From: Actinocorallia populi
GTDB taxonomy: Bacteria > Actinomycetota > Actinomycetes > Streptosporangiales > Streptosporangiaceae
Direction of reading: 5' to 3'
Assembly (NCBI RefSeq): GCF_002995495.1
Contig: NZ_PVZV01000006.1
Span: forward strand, 186,001-250,000
DNA: 64,000 nt
The notes under the pieces were generated by a model, which had not been told where the DNA came from, did no database searches, and was given only the letters and a program-made list of their open reading frames with translations. Shown here one piece after another: positions 5,602 to 23,317 of the stretch; within the stretch, counting starts at the first letter, position 1, and every line of letters begins with the position of its first letter. Made by a program: the position numbers and the translations under genes.

Positions 5602-8600
5602 TCAGTTCTCCATCCTTCGGGCGAGGGCGGCGATGGTCGGGGTGTCGAACACCGCCTGGAGCGGGATGCGGTCGCCGGTCTCCTCCCGGATCCGCGCGAT
5701 CAGGCGCGCCACGAGCAGCGAGTGGCCGCCGAGGGCGAAGAAGCCGTCGTGGACGCCGACCCGGTCGAGGCCGAGCAGGTCGCACCAGATCGAGGCCAGG
5801 CGGATCTCGGCGGGGGTGCCCGGCGGGACGAACTTCTCGGCGAGGTCGGGACGGGCCGTGTCGGGCAGGGGCAGGGAGCGGTGGTCGCGTTTGCCGGTCG
5901 CGGTGAGGGGGATCGCGTCGAGCAGGGTCCACCGGGTCGGGACCATGTGGTCGGGGAGCCGCCGTGCGGCCGCCTCGCGGAGCGCGGCCAGCAGGGCGGC
6001 GCGCCCGCGCCAGGCCTGCCTCGGCGGGGACGGCGGGGGTTGCAGCGCGCCGGGCCGGACGGCGTAGACGTTGTAGAGGTCGGTCGAGGCGAGCTGCGGG
6101 TCGCGGTGGACCTCGACCCGGTAGCCGTGGCGGCGCAGGAGTCCGGTGGCATGGTCGAGGCGGCCGTCCCTGTCGTGGACCTCGACGACGATCTGGTCGA
6201 TCCGCTGGAAGTCGTCATCGTCGATGCCCGCGAGCACCTCCAGCTCGCTCTTCTCGACGTCGATCTTGAGGAGGTCGATCCGGGGGACGCCGTGCTCGCG
6301 CATGACGTCGCTGAGGCGGCGGATCTCGGCGGGCTGCTCGACCGTGCGCAGCCGCTCCAGCAGCAGCTCCTCGATGATGTCGGCGCCGATCTCGACGCCC
6401 TGGGCGGCGATCTGGGCGGTGAGGAGCGCCCGGACGAGGCCGCTCTCGTCGTCGGGGTCGGCGAACCGCCCCGACAGGACGGAGGCGTGCGGGTAGTAGG
6501 AGAAGACGACGTCCGCGCGGGTCTCGCCGAGGCCGTAGGGGAGCACCCGGGCGTCCACGCCGTGCAGGTCCAGGTTGCGCCGGAGGACGTCGCGCACCGG
6601 CGCCACCGGCTCGAACGCGTAGATCTTCGGGTCGTGGCAGACGCCGGAGCACCAGACGCCGAACAGGCCGATGTTGGCGCCGACGTCGAAGACGGTCGCG
6701 CCGTCCGGCAGCCGGACGCCGCCCTTGAGGTACACGGCGTCCGTGAAGATCTCCTGGGCGGTGAACTCCGTCTCCGACCGGTTGAGCATGAACACCGTCG
6801 ACCCGTCGGGCAGGTCCATGGTCTCGCCGCCGGTGAGCCGGGTGAGGCGGCGGGGCGCGGTCGCGGTCTTCTCGTCCGGGACGACGTGCGCGACGAGCCG
6901 GCCGTCCCCCGCGGTCACCGCGGCCTCCTGCACGCCGGGGTGCGCGGCCAGCACGGCCTCGACCTCGCCGGGCTCGATCCGGAACCCCCGGATCTTCACC
7001 TGGTCGTCGGCCCTGCCGAGGTGGACGAGGGTGCCGTCGGGCCGCCGCAGCGCGAGGTCGCCGGAGCGGTAGAGGCGCGCGCCGGGCACGAGCGGGTCGG
7101 GCACGAACCGGGTGGCGGTCAGCGCGGGCCGCCCCCGGTAGCCGCGGGCCACGCCGGGCCCGCCCACGTGGATCTCTCCGGCCACGCCGTCGGGCACCGG
7201 CCTGCCCCGCCAGTCGAGCAGGTGGACGCGCAGCCCGTCGATCGGCCTCCCGATCGGGCTGCCGCCGCGTTCGACGTGCTCGCGGCCGAGCGGCTGCCAG
7301 GTGACGTGCACGGTCGTCTCCGTGATCCCGTACATGTTGACGAACCGGGTCTCCCCATCCCACCACGGGCCGAGTTCGGAGGCCTCCAGCGCCTCGCCGC
7401 CGAACACCACGAGCCGGGGCCCGAGCCCGGCGGCGCCGCCGACGGCGAGGGCGAGCTGCCGGAAGGCCGACGGCGTCTGGTTCAGCACGGTGACCCGGTG
7501 CTCGGCGAGCAGCGCGGCGAACCTGTCGGCCGAGCGCGCGGTCTCCAGCGGGACGACGACGAGCCGCCCCCCGTGCAGGAGCGCTCCGAAGATCTCCCAG
7601 ACGGAGAAGTCGAAGGCGAAGGAGTGGAAGAGGGTCCAGGTGTCGTGGGGGCCGAAGCCCGTCCAGGAGCGGGTGGCGGTGAAGAGCGACACCGCCTGCC
7701 GGTGGGTGACCTCGACGCCCTTGGGCCGCCCGGTGGAGCCCGACGTGTAGATCACGTAGGCGAGGTCGTCCGGGTGCGGGGCGGGTCCGGCGGCCTCACC
7801 CGGGCCCTGCGGATCGAGCGGCAGGAGCGGGACGGGCACCTCCAGGGGCCCGTCCGAGAGCACGGCGGCGGCGCCCGCGTCGGCGACGGTGTCGACGAGC
7901 CGTTCGCGCGGGTGGTGCGGGTCGAGCGGGAGGTAGGCGGCCCCCGCCCTGAGCACGCCGAGCACCGCCGCGACCAGCGCGGCCGACCGGTCGGCGTGGA
8001 CGCCGACGACGTCGCCCCGCCCGTGCCCGGCCGCGGCGAGCCGCGCCGCGATCCGCCCGGCCCAGGCGTCGAGCTCGGCGTAGGTGTACCGGGCGGCTCC
8101 GTCGATGAGGGCCTCGGCCCGCGGGGTCCGCGCCGCCTGGGCCGCGAACAGGCTCGCGAGGGTGTCCTCGACCGGCGGCGGGACGGCCGGGGCGGGCTCC
8201 TCCTCGTGCAGGTCGAGCGCCCCGAGCCGGACGTCGGGGTCGGCCGCGACCTGTGCCAGCAGCCGGCGCAGCCCGGCGAGCATCCCCTCCGCGGCGGAGC
8301 GGTCCAGGCGGGCGGTGTCGTGGGAGGCCTGGAGCACCAGCCGCTCACCCGGCACGACCAGGAGCGTCAACGGGTAGTGCGAGGCGGACCAGCTGCCCGC
8401 GAACTCCACGGCGAGATCGCCGGTCCCGCCGAACACGGCGCCGTCGACCGGGTAGTTCTCGAACCCGATGATGGTCTCGAACGGCGCCGCGCCCGGTTCG
8501 GCCCCGGTCGCGGCGTGGATGCGGGCGAGCGGCGTCGTCTCGTGCCGGCGGGCCTCGGACTGGCGGTCCTGGAGGTCGCGGAACCACTGCGAGGCCCGGG

Positions 8601-9480
8601 CCTCCGGCCGCACCAGGGCCCGGACCGGCAGCGTGTTGATGAAGGGGCCGACCATGTCCTCGGCCCCGTCGAGGTCGAGGGGGCGGCCCGAGACCGTCGC
8701 GCCGAACACGACGTCGGGCTCCCCGCAGTAGACCGAGAGCAGCACCGCCCAGCAGCCCTGCACGATGGTGTTGACGGTCAGCCGCGCGGCACGCGCCGCG
8801 CCGGTCAGCGCCGCGGTCTCGGCTCCGGTCAGCTCCAGGCGGCACTCGGCGAGGCCTGACGCCGCGGCGGGCCGCTCGACGCGCAGCGGCGGGCGCTCGT
8901 CCAGCCCGGCGAGCTCGGCGCGCCAGAACCGGTCGGCCTCGGTGAGATCGAGCGTGCCGCAGTGGGCGACGTGGTCGCGGAACGGCCGGGGCGGTGCGCC
9001 GGGCCGCGCGCCCCGGTACGCCGCCAGGACCTCGCGCAGCACGATCGCGAGACTCCACCCGTCGATCACCAGGTGGTGGACGGTCCACACGAACAGGTGC
9101 TCGTCGTCGGCGGTCTTCACCAGCGTGAACCGCGACAGCGGCGGCACCGCGAGGTCGAACCCCCGGACGCGGTCCTCGGCGAGGTACGCCTCGATCCAGG
9201 CGGCGTCCCGGCCCTCCTCGAAACGCCAGAGCGGCGGCGCGGGATCGACGGCGACCACCTGGAGGGGATCCTCGACGCCCTCCCACACGAAACCGGTGCG
9301 CAGGACGGGGTGGCGGCCGACGACCTCGCGCCACGCCGCCTGGAAGTCCGCGACGCGCAGCGGCCCCTTCAGCCGGAGCCGGATCTGCTCGACGTAGGCG
9401 CCGGTGCCGGGCTCGGCGAGCACGTGCACGAGGAGGCCGCGCTGGACCGGCGAGAGCGGGTAGATGTCCTCGATCCTCAT
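5602..9480 (-). CDS. NRPS module C-A(Thr)-[FkbM methyltransferase inside A]-PCP
   Basis: A 1292-residue single module. The condensation domain (about 1-430) has intact HHLVIDG near residue 137. The adenylation domain begins near 450 with YTSGSTGRPKG (about 580) and MYGITETTVHVTW (about 716). The specificity residues I read (D-F-W-N-V-G-M-V-H-K) match the threonine code. Between core A8 (GRADDQVKIRGFRIEPGE) and A9 (LPDHMVP) is an FkbM-type methyltransferase of about 280 residues, with VFDVGANIGLFG near 935 and DLLKIDVEKSELEVL. A10 is PLTATGKRDHRSL, and the carrier serine is in GGHSLLV near 1253. The protein ends after the carrier, with no thioesterase. The start overlaps the thioesterase stop (ATGA). 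I infer side-chain O-methylation of the bound Thr; N-methylation is the alternative. Confidence 0.9.
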   Translation of the reverse strand: MRIEDIYPLSPVQRGLLVHVLAEPGTGAYVEQIRLRLKGPLRVADFQAAWREVVGRHPVLRTGFVWEGVEDPLQVVAVDPAPPLWRFEEGRDAAWIEAYLAEDRVRGFDLAVPPLSRFTLVKTADDEHLFVWTVHHLVIDGWSLAIVLREVLAAYRGARPGAPPRPFRDHVAHCGTLDLTEADRFWRAELAGLDERPPLRVERPAAASGLAECRLELTGAETAALTGAARAARLTVNTIVQGCWAVLLSVYCGEPDVVFGATVSGRPLDLDGAEDMVGPFINTLPVRALVRPEARASQWFRDLQDRQSEARRHETTPLARIHAATGAEPGAAPFETIIGFENYPVDGAVFGGTGDLAVEFAGSWSASHYPLTLLVVPGERLVLQASHDTARLDRSAAEGMLAGLRRLLAQVAADPDVRLGALDLHEEEPAPAVPPPVEDTLASLFAAQAARTPRAEALIDGAARYTYAELDAWAGRIAARLAAAGHGRGDVVGVHADRSAALVAAVLGVLRAGAAYLPLDPHHPRERLVDTVADAGAAAVLSDGPLEVPVPLLPLDPQGPGEAAGPAPHPDDLAYVIYTSGSTGRPKGVEVTHRQAVSLFTATRSWTGFGPHDTWTLFHSFAFDFSVWEIFGALLHGGRLVVVPLETARSADRFAALLAEHRVTVLNQTPSAFRQLALAVGGAAGLGPRLVVFGGEALEASELGPWWDGETRFVNMYGITETTVHVTWQPLGREHVERGGSPIGRPIDGLRVHLLDWRGRPVPDGVAGEIHVGGPGVARGYRGRPALTATRFVPDPLVPGARLYRSGDLALRRPDGTLVHLGRADDQVKIRGFRIEPGEVEAVLAAHPGVQEAAVTAGDGRLVAHVVPDEKTATAPRRLTRLTGGETMDLPDGSTVFMLNRSETEFTAQEIFTDAVYLKGGVRLPDGATVFDVGANIGLFGVWCSGVCHDPKIYAFEPVAPVRDVLRRNLDLHGVDARVLPYGLGETRADVVFSYYPHASVLSGRFADPDDESGLVRALLTAQIAAQGVEIGADIIEELLLERLRTVEQPAEIRRLSDVMREHGVPRIDLLKIDVEKSELEVLAGIDDDDFQRIDQIVVEVHDRDGRLDHATGLLRRHGYRVEVHRDPQLASTDLYNVYAVRPGALQPPPSPPRQAWRGRAALLAALREAAARRLPDHMVPTRWTLLDAIPLTATGKRDHRSLPLPDTARPDLAEKFVPPGTPAEIRLASIWCDLLGLDRVGVHDGFFALGGHSLLVARLIARIREETGDRIPLQAVFDTPTIAALARRMEN

Positions 9481-10231
9481 GGGCGCGCCAGGCCGGAGCC
9501 GACCGCGGCGACGACGTCGTCCGCCGCGGAGTCGAGGAAGAAGTGGTCGCCCGGGAACACCCGCAGATCCGGGGCCGCCGAGGTGAGAGCGCTCCACCCG
9601 GTGACGGCCTCGGGACCGGCCGAGGGGTCGAGGTCCCCGGCGAACAGGGTCAGGGGGCAGCTCAGCGGCGGGTCCGCCGGTCTCGGCCGCCCCGCTCGCG
9701 CCGACTCGAACAGTTCGTAGTCGGCGCGGATGGCGGGCAGCATCAGCGCCAGGAGCGCGGGTTCGGCGACGTGCCGGGGCTCGAGCACCCCGGCCTGCCG
9801 CAGTCCGCGGACGAACTCGCCGTCGGTGAGCGCCCCGACGTTCCCGAGCGGCCGCTGCGTCCACGGCGGCGCGGAGCCCGACAGGATGAGCGATCCGGGC
9901 TGGATTCCTTCGCGATCGCGCAGCGCGATCGCCGTCTCGGCGGCGAGCAGCGCGCCGAGGCAGTGGCCGAACAGGGCGAACGGGCCGCCGGTCCAGGGAC
10001 GCAGGGCGGGCAGGAACTCGTCGAGGAAGGCGTCGAGCCCGGTGACCGGGGCGTCGTTGAGGCGCTCCTCCCGGCCCGGGAACTGGACCGCGAGGACGTC
10101 CGCGGCCCCGTCGAGCAGCTTCGGCCATTCCTGGAACACGGACGCGCCGCGCCCCGCGTAGGCGAAGCAGACGATCTTGAGCCGTCCGTCACCCGGCACG
10201 GCGGCCGGTCCGGGACGCAGCCAGGGACTGG

Positions 10232-10235
<4 letters not shown>
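9477..10235 (-). CDS. Type II thioesterase with Cys in the nucleophile position
   Basis: A 252-residue alpha/beta hydrolase of the external (TEII) thioesterase family. Hallmarks are CFAYAGRGASVFQEW, VQFPGREERL, the nucleophile elbow ALFGHCLGA and the late GDHFFL with the catalytic His; the acid probably lies in AGDLDP. TEII enzymes normally have GHSxG and clear misprimed or stalled carriers. Here the codon is TGC, giving GHCLG. It overlaps the PKS/NRPS gene upstream and the NRPS gene downstream by 4 bp each (ATGA). As no terminal TE domain exists in the assembly line, this enzyme may also release the product; that is an inference. Confidence 0.88.
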
Positions 10236-17489
<7,254 letters not shown>

Positions 17490-17500
<11 letters not shown>

Positions 17501-20500
17501 GTCCGTCAGCCCCTTCGTCGAGCAGGTCGGCGAGCAGGTCGGTGAGCAGCGCGTCCACGATCTCCTCGTCCGACGCCCCCTCGCCCTCGCCGGTCCCGTC
17601 CAGATACGCGGCCAGCCGCGCGACGCTCGGATGGTTCAGCACGACCGTCTCCGGCAGCGCCCTGCCGAGGTCCCGCTCCAGCCGCTCCACCAGGTCCACC
17701 CCGGTCAGCGAGTCCATCCCCATCTCCCGGAACCCGGCCTCCTCCTGCACCTCCCCCGCCTCCATCCCCAGCAGCTCGGCCACCGCCCGCACCACGACCT
17801 CCCGCACGTCCCCGCCCCGCGACACGGCCGCGGGACCTGACACGGCCCGATCGCGGGAGGCGATGCCGTCGTGCGGCGCGTGTCCGTTGTGTGAGGTGGT
17901 TTCGTCGTGTGGCGTGTGCCCGTTGTGCGGCACGGCCTGGTTGCGGGAGGTGGTGCCGTGGTGTGGCGTGTGCCCGTCGTGTGAGGCGGTCCGGTTGCGG
18001 GAGGTGGTTTCGTCGTGCGGCGTGTGCTCGGCGGGTGGCGCGGGTGCGGGGGCGGCGGGGTGGTGCCAGGGGTAGCGGGGCGGGCGGGCGCGGGGGGCCG
18101 GGCCGTTGAGGGCGCGCCAGTCGAGGGCGGCCCCGGCCTCGTAGAGGGCGGCGGCGGTGGTGAGGAGCGCGAGCCTGCCGTCGGCGGGGGAGCGGAGGGT
18201 CGGCAGGGAGCCGGGCCCCTGCCAGGCGCCCAGGTCGACGACGGTCGAGGGGAGGGGGAGCCGCGGGGGCGGGGAGGGCGGCGGCGGGGCGGCGGCGCGG
18301 CGCATGGCGGCGGGGAGGTCGAGCAGGCCTCGGGCGTAGGCGGCGGCGGTCTCGCCCGCGCCGGAGCCGGTCACCAGGGCGGGGGACAGACCCCAGGTCC
18401 GCAGGAGGTCGGTGAGCGCGATCTGGACGGCGGTCAGGAAGGGGACCGCCAGTCCGTCGGGCCAGGAGGCGGGGGAGTCGTGGCCGAAGAGGTCGAGCAG
18501 GGGCAGGGCGGGGAGTGCGGCGGCGCACGCGTCGAACGAGGCGCGGAACACCGGCTCCTGGAAGTAGAGGGCGCCGCCGGCCGCCACGGGTTCGCCCGGG
18601 TAGTGGAAGACGAGGGTGCCGAGGGGCGGACGGGCGGCGGGGGCGGCGCGGGCGAGGAGTTCGCCGAGCTCCCGGACGCCGGGCGCGGCCAGCGCGGCGC
18701 GGACCGGGTGGTGGGCGCGCAGTCCCGCGCCGAGCGCGACGGCCGCGCCCGCGCCGGATGTCCCGGCGTCGTCGAGCAGGGCGCGGTAGGCGGCGGCCAG
18801 GGGGGCTATGCCCTCGGGGCGGCGGGCCGAGAGCGGCAGCAGCAGCGGGCGCTCCGGGACGGGCGGGGCCGGAGCGCGGCGGGGCGGCTGGGCCAGGACG
18901 GCGTGGGCGTTGGCGCCGCCGAACCCGAACGAGCTTACCCCGGCGAGGGCGGGCCGTCCGAGGTCGGGCAGCACGACGGGCTCGGAGTTCACCTCCAGGC
19001 CCAGGGAGGGCAGGTCCAGCCGGGGGTTCACGGTCTCGGCGTGCAGGGTCGCGGGCACGACGCCGTGGTGCAGGGCCAGGGCCGCGCGGATGAGGCCGGC
19101 GATCCCCGCGGCGGCCTCCAGGTGGCCGAGGCCGCTCTTCACCGAGCCGATGAGGCAGGGCCGCCGGCGGCCCGCGCCGAGCGCCGAACCCAGCGCGGTC
19201 GCCTCGATCAGGTCGCCCACCGGCGTGCCCGAGCCGTGCGCCTCGACGAAGTCGATCTCGGCGGGGGCGACCCCGGCCCGCCGGTGGGCCGCCGCGATCA
19301 CCGCTTCCTGCGCCGGGCCCGACGGGGCGGTGAGCCCGTTCGTGCGCCCGTCGTGGTTGACGGCGCTCCCCCGGAGGACCGCGTAGACCTCGTCGCCGTC
19401 GGCGAGCGCGTCCGCGAGGCGTTTGAGCACCACGAGCCCGGCGCCCTCGGCCCGCACGTAGCCGTCGGCTCCGGCTCCGAACGACCGGCACCGCCCGGTC
19501 GGCGACAGCAGGTGCGCCTCGGCGAGCGCCGCCGTCACCTCGGGCTGGAGCACCAGGTTCGCGCCCCCGGCGAGCGCGAGACCGCACTCGGCGTCGCGCA
19601 GCGACCGGGCCGCCAGGTGGACGGCGGTCAGCGACGACGAGCACGCCGTGTCGATCGCGAGGCTCGGCCCGCGCAGGTCCAGCGCGTAGGACAACCGGTT
19701 CGCGGCGACGCTGTGCGCCGCCCCGGTCGTGAGGTAGGGGTCGGCGAATCCCGCGGGCCCGGCGCGGAGCACGAACTCCGGACTCCAGATCCCCACGAAG
19801 ACCCCGGTGTCGCTCCCGGCGAGCGCCGCCGGATCGATCCCCGCGTCCTCCAGCGCCTCCCACCCGACCTCCAGCAGCATCCGCTGCTGCGGGTCCATCG
19901 CCGCCGCCTCGCGCGGCGAGATCCCGAAGAACCCGTGGTCGAAGGCCTCCACCCCCTCGTCCGGCCGTCCGGCCCACCCGTCCGCGTCCGCCGAGACCGC
20001 GTCACCCCCCGCCATGAGCAGCCGCCACAGCTCCCGCCCCGAAGCGGCACCCGGAAACCGGCAGCCGATCCCCACGATCGCGACATCGCCGTCACGCCCC
20101 CCGCCCCCACCGCCGGTGAACGGCGCGCCCGGCGCGAATGGCGCAGATGACGTGAACGTCGTGGATGCCGTGAACGTCGTGGGCGGCGCATCCGGCGCGC
20201 CCAGCGTGGGTGGCGCGCCCAGCGTGGGTGGCGCGTCCGGCGTGAATGGTGCGGGCGGCGTGGTGGCTGCGGCGGGGGCGGGGGAGGCGGGCGTGCTCAG
20301 GGCGGCGGCCAGCCTGGTCAGGGTGGGGTGGTCGTAGGGGAGGCCGTCCGGCACCGGGCGGCCGAGGCGGGCGGACAGGGCGGCGGTCAGCTCGGCGGCG
20401 CGCCGCGAGTCGAGGCCGTACTCGGCGAAGGGGCGGTCGTCGGCGATGCGGGCCGGGGGAGTGCCGGTGAGGTCGGCGAGGCGTTCGCGGAGCCAGCCGG

Positions 20501-22208
20501 TCAGATCGTCCGGGGAGGCGGCGCGGGCCGGGGCGGCGAACCGGGGTGAGCTCCAGGAGAAGAGTTCGGTGTGGGAGCCGGAGAGAAGGCGGTCGCGGTT
20601 CTCGGAGCGCTGGATCTTGCCGCTCGACGTCTTGCTGAGGGTGCCCCTGGCGATGAGGACGACGGCGGCGACCGGGATGTCATGGGTCTCGGTGACGGCG
20701 CGGCGGATCGCCGCGGCGGCCTCGTCGGCGGTGCGGCGGTCGAGGGCGTCGTCCGCGACCTCCTGGACGATGACGAGGTTCTCCTCCACGCCGTCGTCCA
20801 CCCCGAACGCCGCCGCGCAGCCGGGCCGCAGCGCCGGATGGGACTCGAACGCGGTCGCCTCGATGTCGTGGGGGTGGTGGTTGCGTCCCGCGACGATGAC
20901 GAGGTCCTTGCGGCGGCCCGTCACGTAGAGCTCGCCGTCGCGGAGGAATCCCAGGTCGCCGGTGCGCAGGCAGCCCGCCGTGCCGTCGAGCGCGGTGGCG
21001 CCGAAGCTCGCCGCGGTGGCCTCGGCGTTCCGGTAGTAGCCCGCGGTGATGCTGGGCCCGGCCGCCCACACCTCGCCGACGGTCCCGTCGGGCACCGGCC
21101 GCGCGGTGTCGGGATCGACGATCCGGACGGTGAACCCGGAGAGGGGACGCCCGCAGGAGACGAGTTCCGCACCCTCCCCGGACGGCTGGACGCGAACGCC
21201 CTCACCGGCTCGCATCCCCGTGACGATGAGGGTGGCCTCGGCCAGCCCGTAGCACGGCGCGAGGGCCTCGGCGCGAAAGCCGGAGGGCGCGAAAGCAGCC
21301 GCGAACCGGCGCATGGTGGCGGCCCGGACGGGTTCGGAGGCGTTGGCCGCGACCTTCCAGCAGGACAGGTCGAGCGCGGCTGCCTCAGCCGGGTCGATCT
21401 TGCGCACGCAGTGGTCGAAGCCGAAGTTCGGGGCGATGGAGTGGGTGCCGCGGTGCTCGGCGTGGGCGCGCAGCCACCGGAGCGGGTCCTGGACGAACGC
21501 AGCGGGCGTCATGAGAACGGTCGGGATCCGCACCATGACGGGCAGGAGCGCGTTGTAGACCAGGCCCATGTCGTGGAACATCGGCAGCCACGAGACCATC
21601 GTGCTGCCCGGCGGGTGCCCCCACGCGGCGTCCATGGCCGTGCAGTTGGCGAGGACCTCCTCCTGCCCGACCAGGACGCCCTTGGGCCGGGACGTCGATC
21701 CCGAGGTGTACTGGAGGTAGGCGGGCCCGGAGAACGCCCGGCCGAGCCCGTCCTCGTCGAGCGACGGGGTGGTGTCGGCGACCGTGAGCCACTGCACCGC
21801 CGCGAGTTCCGGGACCGCGGGCAGGTCGTCGAGCAGCGCGGCCAGCGTCTCGGGCCGGGCGAGCGCCACGGGGGCGTCGCAGTCCCGCTGGATGGCGGCC
21901 AGCCGAGGCAGGGAGCGGGCGAGCGGCAACCGGGGAGGGGGCGCGGGGACGGCCGTGACCCCGGCGAGCAGGCAGCCGTAGAACGCGGACAGGAAGTCGA
22001 GCCCGGTGTCGTAGACCAGGAGCGCGGTCCGTCCGGCGAAACCCCTCTCGGTGAGCGCGTGGGCCACGCCGAGCGCGCTCGCGTACAGCTCCCGCCAGGT
22101 GAACGCCTCGTCCGGCCCCGCGTCGAAGCGCCGGAAGCGGAAGGCCTCCTCCTCCGGCGCGACGGCCGCGTCGCGCGCGAGGAGTCCCGTGATCAAGTGT
22201 GCGCCCAT
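17490..22208 (-). CDS. Loading PKS: FAAL-ACP-KS-AT(degenerate)-ACP
   Basis: A 1572-residue protein. Residues 1 to about 575 are a fatty acyl-AMP ligase (YTSGSTSRPKGV, FHDMGL, TGRRKDLVIVAGRNHHPHDIE), which activates a free acid as acyl-AMP and passes it to the ACP that follows (Ser in YGLDSRRA, near 598). After a repeat linker comes a KS with intact DTACSSSL (near 852), HGSGT and SGLGHLEA. The AT is a remnant: PGQG is replaced by YPGEP, the nucleophile elbow GHSxG reads GSGAG (near 1280), and about 170 residues including the HAFH region and catalytic His are missing. A His-rich repeat linker leads to a second ACP (Ser in MGMDSLTG, near 1499). No reductive domain is present. The ATG at 22208 begins the conserved FAAL fold. 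Confidence 0.92.
17838..18030. repeat. 54-bp minisatellite encoding a His-rich linker
   Basis: About 3.7 imperfect in-frame units code for 18-residue repeats such as HTPHDETTSRNRTASHDG and HTPHHGTTSRNQAVPHNG, then shortened units. The array sits between the degenerate AT and the last ACP of the loading PKS. All unit lengths are multiples of 3 (54, 54, 36, 48 bp), so copy changes keep the frame. Confidence 0.8.
20119..20262. repeat. 18-bp minisatellite encoding the ACP-KS linker
   Basis: Imperfect 18-bp units, for example GCGCCCAGCGTGGGTGGC twice in a row and a GTGAACGTCGTGG-type unit twice, code for 6-residue repeats rich in Pro, Thr, Ala and Phe between ACP1 and KS of the loading PKS. Confidence 0.75.
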
Positions 22209-22252: not shown

Positions 22253-23317
22253 CTACACGAAGTCCGGCATGACCTTCTCCGCGAAGACCCTGATCGACGA
22301 CATGATCAGTTCGTGGGGAACGGTCCCGACCTGCATGACGAGGGCCAGTTCGTCGACGCCCGCCGCGGCGAACCTCGCGACGGTCTCCCTGGCGCGGACC
22401 GGGTCGCCGACGACGGCGGTGAGCGCGCCCTCCGAGCGTGCGGCCATGGCCGCGGCGAGCGCCTCCTCGGTCAGGTCGCCGCGGGGGACGGGCAGGCGCC
22501 CGGTGGGCCGGTCACGGTAGGCGTAGTACTCCTTCATCGCGTCCCAGAAGAAGCGGGCGCCGCGGAAGCCGTGGGTGCAGGCGAGCCGGTCGTCCTCCAG
22601 CACGAGCGCGGTGGGCGTGCACACGTAGCGGCCCGTCTTGGCGTAGGCCGACGGCGCGGCCGCGTCCCAGTTGGCCCGGTAGGCCGCGACCTTGGCGGCG
22701 AGTTCGGCGTCGGTCCCGGCGGCGAAGTTCAGCGCGCCGATCCCGAGCGATCCGGCCAGTTCCGCCGTCCTGGCGTTGGTGCACGCCGCGAACATCGGCG
22801 GATGCGGCCGCTGCACCGGCTTCGGCACGATCTGCGTCGGCGGGATGTCGTACCGCTCGCTGTGCCATTCGAAGACGTCGTCACGCCACATCCGAGGGAT
22901 CATCTCCAGCGCCTCGGCCCATTCGTCGTGCAATTTCGCCGGGTCGTTGGAGAACGCGTCCTGCTCGGTCCTGCTGCCGCTCTTGCCCGACCCCCAGTCG
23001 ACCCGGCCCTCCGAAAGAATGTCCAGGGCCGCGATTCGCTCGGCGATCCTGATCGGATGGTTGTAGTTGCCGGGAGTGAGCGTGACGCCGTGCCCGATCC
23101 GGATGCTCCGGGTCCGCGCCGCGACATAGGCGAGGAAGATCTCGGGCGCCGACGAGTGCGCGTACTCGTAGAGGCCGTGGTGCTCGGCGGCCCAGATCCC
23201 CTGGTAGCCGAGCGCGTCGGCGAGCACCGCCTGCTCGGCGCAGTCGTGGAAGAGGCGCCGTTCGGACGCCGCTCCCGGCTCGGATATCTGCATTTCAAAG
23301 AAAAGCGAAAACCGCAA
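22253..23317 (-). CDS. LLM-class flavin-dependent monooxygenase (first gene of the biosynthetic operon)
   Basis: A 354-residue luciferase-like TIM-barrel enzyme. The N-terminus RFSLFFEMQI is the conserved start of this subfamily, and GIWAAEHHGLYEYAHSSAPEIFLAYVAART and HPIRIAERIAALDILSEGRVDWGSG are further signatures. These enzymes use reduced FMN and O2 for Baeyer-Villiger oxidation, hydroxylation or N/S-oxidation. I use TTG 23317 as start because it places the conserved motif at residue 2; the only nearby ATG would cut it. No strong Shine-Dalgarno is visible. It lies 44 bp upstream of the FAAL-PKS on the same strand, so oxidation of the polyketide or thiazoline is likely. Confidence 0.85.
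   Translation of the reverse strand: MRFSLFFEMQISEPGAASERRLFHDCAEQAVLADALGYQGIWAAEHHGLYEYAHSSAPEIFLAYVAARTRSIRIGHGVTLTPGNYNHPIRIAERIAALDILSEGRVDWGSGKSGSRTEQDAFSNDPAKLHDEWAEALEMIPRMWRDDVFEWHSERYDIPPTQIVPKPVQRPHPPMFAACTNARTAELAGSLGIGALNFAAGTDAELAAKVAAYRANWDAAAPSAYAKTGRYVCTPTALVLEDDRLACTHGFRGARFFWDAMKEYYAYRDRPTGRLPVPRGDLTEEALAAAMAARSEGALTAVVGDPVRARETVARFAAAGVDELALVMQVGTVPHELIMSSIRVFAEKVMPDFV

Follow-up and report, generated by a model that had tools for sequence, protein, structure and literature searches.

A shortened acyltransferase, predicted to be inactive, in a FAAL-initiated polyketide synthase of Actinocorallia populi, and similar shortened domains in other assembly lines

In the 64,000-nucleotide stretch of an Actinocorallia populi contig analysed here (the window; NZ_PVZV01000006.1, positions 186,001 to 250,000), the polyketide synthase (PKS) subunit P0001 carries a much shortened acyltransferase (AT) between a ketosynthase (KS) and an acyl carrier protein (ACP), which raises the question of how that carrier receives an extender unit and why part of the AT has been kept. 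Assembly-line prediction presumes one working AT per cis-AT module. A dead half-AT that is conserved next to a KS and an ACP of functional appearance is a sign of cross-module loading, which annotation overlooks.

Domain layout and what is left of the acyltransferase

The P0001 reading frame (17490-22208, minus strand) encodes 1572 residues without a frame break, and Pfam recognizes in it AMP-binding, two PP-binding stretches, ketoacyl-synthase with its C-terminal extension, and a partial acyltransferase, giving the order FAAL-ACP-KS-(AT remnant)-ACP (Table 1). With a fatty acyl-AMP ligase (FAAL) fused to an ACP and a KS it belongs with the FAAL-initiated PKSs; the ligase domain is 63-67% identical across orthologues and matches the NCBIfam fatty-acid--AMP ligase models below those models' cut-offs. 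As a sequence-only reading of the window had reported, the KS and ACP motifs are intact: KS1 has DTACSSS, EAHGSGT and GHLEAA, and ACP2, which is 54-69% identical across orthologues, has GMDSL, with the serine kept in all three. The window KS1 is without about 11-12 residues of the EVPxxR region (~19970-20010, minus strand) that both orthologues retain, and the 54-base repeat lengthens a His/Thr/Asn-rich spacer ahead of ACP2 that is shorter in both orthologues.

Table 1. Features of the P0001 module and the neighbouring genes, in window coordinates.
Feature	Position	Strand	Basis
FAAL domain of P0001, residues 1-545	20574..22208	-	Pfam AMP-binding, 202.8 bits
ACP1 of P0001, residues 565-640; probable acceptor of the FAAL-activated starter	20289..20516	-	Pfam PP-binding
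KS1 of P0001, residues 705-1106	18891..20096	-	Pfam ketoacyl-synt, 261.7 bits; catalytic motifs intact
KS-AT linker domain of P0001, residues 1115-1195	18624..18866	-	AF2 pLDDT 80-96 by block; alignment to CurL and DEBS linkers
AT remnant, N-terminal third, residues 1196-1305, GSGAGE replacing GHSxGE	18294..18623	-	Pfam, motifs, AT profile
Pro-rich junction at site of ~178 missing AT profile positions	18195..18293	-	AT profile; pLDDT 53-66
AT C-terminal helix and post-AT linker (PPRYPW), residues 1339-1385	18054..18194	-	AT profile 289-323, 16.8 bits; five-row profile matches CurL 878-937
54-base tandem repeat, 3 copies, spacer preceding ACP2	17866..18027	-	
ACP2 of P0001, residues 1467-1540, GMDSL intact	17589..17810	-	PP-binding 1471-1536
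C-terminal tail of P0001, presumed from its position to dock to P0002	17493..17588	-	48-56% identity among orthologues
P0002 ORF: KS-AT-ACP, then condensation, adenylation, PP-binding, second condensation stretch	10232-17500	-	Pfam
KS2 of P0002	16145..17413	-	Pfam
AT2 of P0002, full length, Ser/Arg/His at profile 90/115/192, GQSLGE, AFH	15005..15880	-	AT profile
ACP3 of P0002 (GGDSL, PCP-like)	14576..14788	-	PP-binding
Cy-like, A, PCP, E-like domains of P0002	10301..14503	-	Pfam Condensation (2 stretches), AMP-binding, PP-binding
Discrete thioesterase	9477..10235	-	Pfam Thioesterase, 129.5 bits; 59% and 62% identical in the two orthologous clusters
P0003: C-A with FkbM-type methyltransferase-PCP (start read from conserved part)	5602..9486	-	Pfam; conserved in both orthologous clusters
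Luciferase-like monooxygenase, first gene of conserved row	22253..23317	-	Pfam Bac_luciferase, 160.8 bits; 75% and 76% identical in orthologous clusters

Against Pfam Acyl_transf_1 (PF00698), the match of P0001 is confined to positions 15-113 of 319 (38.1 bits, cut-off 32.7), compared with 2-300 (188.9 bits) for AT2 of the next subunit, P0002, and the stretch from KS-AT linker through post-AT linker is 279 residues long in P0001 versus 418 in P0002. On an AT profile of 331 positions made from the ATs of the collected loci, in which the nucleophile is position 90, the arginine 115 and the catalytic histidine 192, the remnant matches 13-110 (62.4 bits) and 289-323 (16.8 bits). About 178 positions are absent, with no match at 111-288, and a Pro-rich junction some 30 residues long takes up part of their place; the remnant extends over ~18054-18623 and its linker up to 18866. 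When five short ATs are made into a profile, it matches CurL at 491-721 and again at 878-937, leaving about 156 residues unmatched in between. The earlier estimate that some 170 residues are missing, the catalytic His among them, agrees with this count, and its two motif calls were confirmed, with GSGAGE in place of GHSxG (residues 1281-1286, 18351-18368) and YPGEP within FHYPGEP (18588-18608).

The remnant retains homology to the AT fold, from its Pfam score and a structural match to DEBS KS3-AT3, and it lacks what a functional PKS or fatty acid synthase AT needs: the nucleophile serine is missing from GSGAGE, as from GTGIGR and GGGSGE in the orthologues, and P0001 has neither the arginine nor the catalytic histidine. 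On these motif grounds the AT is predicted to be catalytically dead, and the module would not count as a cis-AT type I module with KS, working AT, and ACP on one chain.

Comparison of a structure prediction with AT folds, which had been proposed as a check, returned a folded half-AT. AlphaFold2 models KS1 plus remnant with pLDDT 83.5 and pTM 0.83, and linker plus remnant alone with 85.9 and 0.84, the junction (model residues ~200-229) being low. The linker-remnant model superposes on the DEBS module 3 KS-AT structure 6c9u over 269 of 279 residues (Z 24.4, rmsd 3.1, chain residues 469-908), a fit to be read with the input alignments in mind, since intact ATs made up 13 of 18 and 12 of 17 rows and the AT fold may be imposed on the model. 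So read, the remnant models as a compact half-AT attached to KS1 that retains the linker, the core strands, the nucleophile-elbow helix, and the post-AT linker. Bearing on the question of a LINKS-type insertion, the KS-AT linker is 76 residues long versus 86 for that of KS2, by the boundaries set here.

The KS-remnant model aligns over its whole length with OzmQ KS1 (PDB 4oqj; 630 of 681 residues, Z 54.8, rmsd 3.8) and ClbC (8xbl; 661 of 748, Z 54.0, rmsd 4.0), chains nearly equal to it in size, and is outscored there by full KS-AT didomains (7vee, Z 60.5, 658 of 828). The OzmQ and ClbC assembly lines use discrete ATs; in the cluster here, unlike those, no discrete AT was found and a cis AT adjoins.

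Downstream, the Cy and E assignments in P0002 are tentative ones from motifs. The Cy motif, DxxxxDxxS, has its first Asp replaced by Asn in the window's Cy-like domain (NMLVCDGRS; 13211-14503, minus strand), where the orthologues have DMMSCDGRS and DMLLCDGRS. In P0003 the FkbM-type methyltransferase separates the core of the adenylation domain from the remainder of that domain, whose signature looks Thr-like.

Orthologous clusters and selection on the remnant

A scan of genome contigs with P0001 matched at least 592 stretches, 567 of them confirmed, and among the best 80 kept were two orthologues over the full length, one from Labedaea rhizosphaerae (L038) and one from Amycolatopsis antarctica (L043). 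Both have the order FAAL-ACP-KS-short AT-ACP and both lie in the gene row luciferase-like monooxygenase, P0001, P0002, thioesterase, P0003. The GHSxGE site reads GTGIGR or GGGSGE in the orthologues, so that Ser is changed to Gly in all three proteins including the window's, and neither nucleophile nor catalytic His is found in any of the three short ATs. Of the idea that homologues might hold the shortened domain conserved and competent, the first half stands in all three, but not the second. The AT remnant as a recent pseudogene or assembly error was ruled out by the three separate assemblies and the unbroken frame.

The three clusters are 75-78% identical in KS1 and 75-83% in KS2, and the three KS1 form one clade with 100/100 support in a tree of 90 KS rows, grouping among KS domains that have full ATs; KS2 branches in the same way. 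The point at which the AT profile resumes differs, being 209 (0.5 bits, weak) and 270 in A. antarctica, 289 in the window, and 299 in Labedaea, which suggests one shared inactivation followed by separate erosion in each lineage. With KS1 only that similar across three genera, the shortened state appears old in protein terms, and the patchy spread of the cluster makes its horizontal transfer likely.

That spread was gauged with a three-row alignment (A2). In the window's family, six of 341 genomes passed E 1e-30, the window's own with 654.7 bits and the other five with 110-120 bits, and the one orthologue found was the window's own (4-5 candidates scored per genome, so misses are possible). One of the five, G275, has no orthologue but another short AT (L125, below), and the remaining four matched only A2 positions up to 198. 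With the same 4-5 candidates scored per genome, the A. antarctica family yielded two passes at E 1e-36 among 390 genomes, both already known orthologues, and one of 394 in the class was recovered, the window's own. No orthologue with an intact AT at the place of the remnant was seen in these family and class searches; locus L118 (genome G032) has an intact AT. An IMG/VR scan gave eight distant matches (25-28% identity), and a viral fold library gave no match at E <= 0.001.

For the N-terminal part of the remnant (108-110 codons), pN/pS is 0.79 for window/Labedaea, 0.65 for window/A. antarctica, and 0.54 for Labedaea/A. antarctica; with the pairs in this order, the same part of AT2 gives 0.61, 0.52, and 0.49, and KS1 gives 0.40, 0.34, and 0.36. 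The remnant had pN below pS in 1933, 1998, and 2000 of 2000 bootstraps, and the window/Labedaea interval extends to 1.02, which counts against purifying selection in that pair. Two of the three comparisons show purifying selection on the remnant, with the third borderline, and its values lie close to those of the neighbouring AT2; the picture is less distinct for the post-AT linker (0.91, 0.67, 0.51) and for the KS-AT linker (0.72, 0.88, 0.60).

Loading of ACP2

The dead AT motifs support the earlier expectation that ACP2 must be loaded from elsewhere or be bypassed. The sequence-only reading had looked to an intact malonyl AT in the next protein, and AT2 does have the Ser, the Arg, and the AFH His, but its motif is GQSLGE and not GHSxG in all three clusters; the three occurrences of GQSLGE among 137 full-length ATs must be these. 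In the yersiniabactin AT, the available part of the source reports that the H640A variant of this motif still transfers, with hydrolysis increased about seven-fold (PMC4186864), and the GQS of AT2 need not, on that precedent, be dead.

Our leading proposal, to which we give an even chance of being right, is that the dead pseudo-AT is kept as a scaffold and that ACP2 is loaded in trans by AT2. The FAAL would put a fatty acyl group on ACP1, and KS1 would accept the chain and condense it with malonyl on ACP2, the malonyl having been placed there by AT2 of the docked P0002, which ACP2 must come near anyway to hand the chain to KS2; AT2 would load ACP3 as well. The product might be an acyl-diketide with a Cys-type heterocycle and a further residue, to go by A-domain motifs, a weak guide. 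AT2 is the best guess as donor because no other intact AT was found close to the module in any of the three genomes. PF00698 occurs at nine places in the window's genome (G000), those on the cluster contig being the remnant, AT2, and a PKS some 190 kb distant; on the A. antarctica cluster contig they are the remnant and AT2 only, and on that of Labedaea the nearest other match is in a 509-residue frame about 65 kb off. Nor does the cluster look like a trans-AT PKS with a discrete AT encoded beside it, none being found near it on G000:C6 and G349:C5 or within 65 kb on G350:C7. Against the proposal, ACP2 and ACP3 of one cluster are just 23-27% identical, so that recognition of both by AT2 is not evident.

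The main rival, which we consider possible but clearly less probable, is loading of ACP2 in trans by a discrete AT encoded in the genome, either the fatty-acid malonyl transferase (MCAT, FabD) or a different one. Candidates exist on other contigs of G000, namely a 297-residue FabD-like AT beside a FabH-like gene and a discrete 338-residue AT beside a PKS gene (genes named by eye), and, in the source as excerpted, the Streptomyces coelicolor MCAT restores an AT-null DEBS module 6 (PMC6164871). Two published lines point the same way in the portions of their sources available. Haliamide modules 2 and 5 are without ATs and a discrete malonyl AT is proposed as their loader (PMC6274090); these resemble the P0001 cluster in being AT-deficient modules within an otherwise cis-AT PKS/NRPS, although the AT is described as missing and not as a folded half. 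Pepstatin PepC is a KS-truncated AT-ACP protein (PMC12081711), like the P0001 module in its truncated AT and its want of reductive domains, and its cluster makes product in the foreign host S. albus Del14. As the only PKS gene there, with no neighbouring AT, PepC must be loaded from outside the cluster or by itself, which argues for a FabD-type loader in that system; in this it differs from P0001, and the likeness of the two is one of described domain layout. Against a FabD-type loader here stand the lack of a discrete AT near the cluster in three genomes, with the nearest in Labedaea so far off, and a docked AT2 at hand.

Loading by AT2 also has to be weighed against readings in which ACP2 is never loaded. 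The chain could pass from ACP1 to KS2, or KS1 and ACP2 could act only as a relay, and from the dead AT alone it follows that an unloaded ACP2 leaves KS1 nothing to condense; yet in KS1 the Cys and both His motifs are intact and conservation is similar to that of KS2, and the ACP2 serine is present in all three, so the module seems to be in use and skipping is unlikely. An earlier suggestion was that of a module caught turning AT-less, and this is left without support by the occurrence of the same dead, shortened AT in three genera at the KS1 divergence given above, together with the selection results. The same inactivating change across genera and the purifying selection in two comparisons also largely refute recent decay toward loss in the window strain, which is very improbable even though the window's remnant has lost more at its C-terminal side than that of A. 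antarctica. Scarcely more to be expected, and slightly less so in our estimate, is that the remnant retains some acyl transfer or is an active surface recruiting a trans AT: the predicted model keeps a folded core, and trans-AT PKSs keep KS-AT linkers (PMC11907408, in the part available), but the nucleophile and the catalytic His are gone and the cluster has no discrete AT.

Dead or truncated ATs are already known, from PepC and from module 12 of the cis-AT irumamycin PKS, whose inactive AT has Ser changed to Gly in motif II (PMC11672594). In the accessible text of that source the authors consider iteration by module 11, with the carrier T12 proposed to reach AT11, so that, as proposed here for P0001, the dead module's carrier would use a neighbour's AT. 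That text mentions no block deletion, and the P0001 module differs in being the first extension module after a FAAL start with its donor AT on another protein. Venemycin was dropped as a precedent, since a figure legend in the excerpted source assigns ATs to the modules (PMC6941969). The P0001/P0002 pair offers a natural test of whether docked subunits share an AT, and it suggests designs with a single AT supplying two carriers.

Shortened acyltransferases in other assembly lines

The collected loci hold 158 KS domains, of which 18 with fewer than 450 residues behind them were set aside; the remaining 140 comprise 135 with a full AT, two with a partial AT (the window and A. antarctica), and three with none. 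Short ATs occur among the 18 as well, in Labedaea, L046, and L100, and most of the others end at the locus edge. With 135 of 140 related KS followed by a full AT and the same domain shortened at the same place in other genera, the shortening exceeds chance.

Seven further short ATs lie outside the orthologous trio. In a Myxococcales MAG (L046:4864-9162, plus strand), a FAAL-ACP-KS-short AT protein with GCGSGH, the middle of the AT missing, and no ACP in cis is followed by a separate carrier-like gene (9235-9489) and an alpha-oxoamine-synthase-like gene (9691-10959), and appears to be an independent case with other chemistry. An Alphaproteobacteria MAG (L100:7205-17566, plus) has KS-short AT with GYDTGE, in which Ser is replaced by Asp, and G275 (L125:7322-9739, plus) has KS-short AT with GHSTGE retained. 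L130:1579-6087 and L131:1321-6549 (both plus), from one genus, are KS-AT-ACP with AT profile positions ~127-131 to 194 missing and the Ser kept (GHSQGE in one, GDSQGE in the other). KS-short AT is also found in L132:922-4365 (plus), which keeps GHSxGE, and in L133:1-6972 (minus), where GDAQGE has Ala for Ser.

By local profile alignments, all ten short ATs are without AT profile positions 132-194, the block with the catalytic His, a count for which a spurious upstream piece (below 0 bits) was ignored in Labedaea and L125 and to which a global alignment adds the detail of two L130 residues inside the block. The Ser is lost in six of the ten and the preceding His in seven. On one FastTree KS tree (166 rows, 148 after dropping 18 unclear) the short-AT label needs seven changes, a number that rests on the KS while ATs recombine, with two of the ten short ATs coming from metagenome bins. 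We offer, as somewhat less than an even chance, that AT loss in cis-AT lines takes a repeatable route, in which the block excised is the inserted ferredoxin-like subdomain that carries the catalytic His, the folded half-AT holds the KS-AT-ACP geometry, and a neighbour or FabD loads the carriers; pseudo-AT modules would then be widespread, overlooked, and the missing intermediate from cis-AT to AT-less. A literature search, with subscription journals mostly outside it, found no report of recurrent excision of the AT ferredoxin-like subdomain, and recurrent excision of one common block may be new. Recurrent loss in what appear to be about seven lineages seems a more interesting lead than the single case, and if common excision proves general the origin of AT-less modules becomes testable from sequence.

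A profile of five short ATs (A5) was run over 197 genomes of the class with at most 10 candidates scored per genome, and gave matches in at least 56. Among the matches listed, 17 rows reach A5 position 262 or beyond, 13 of them intact and four short (L130-L133), in a search biased by its construction from short ATs toward ATs that keep both ends; those four short ATs reach A5 positions 315-316.
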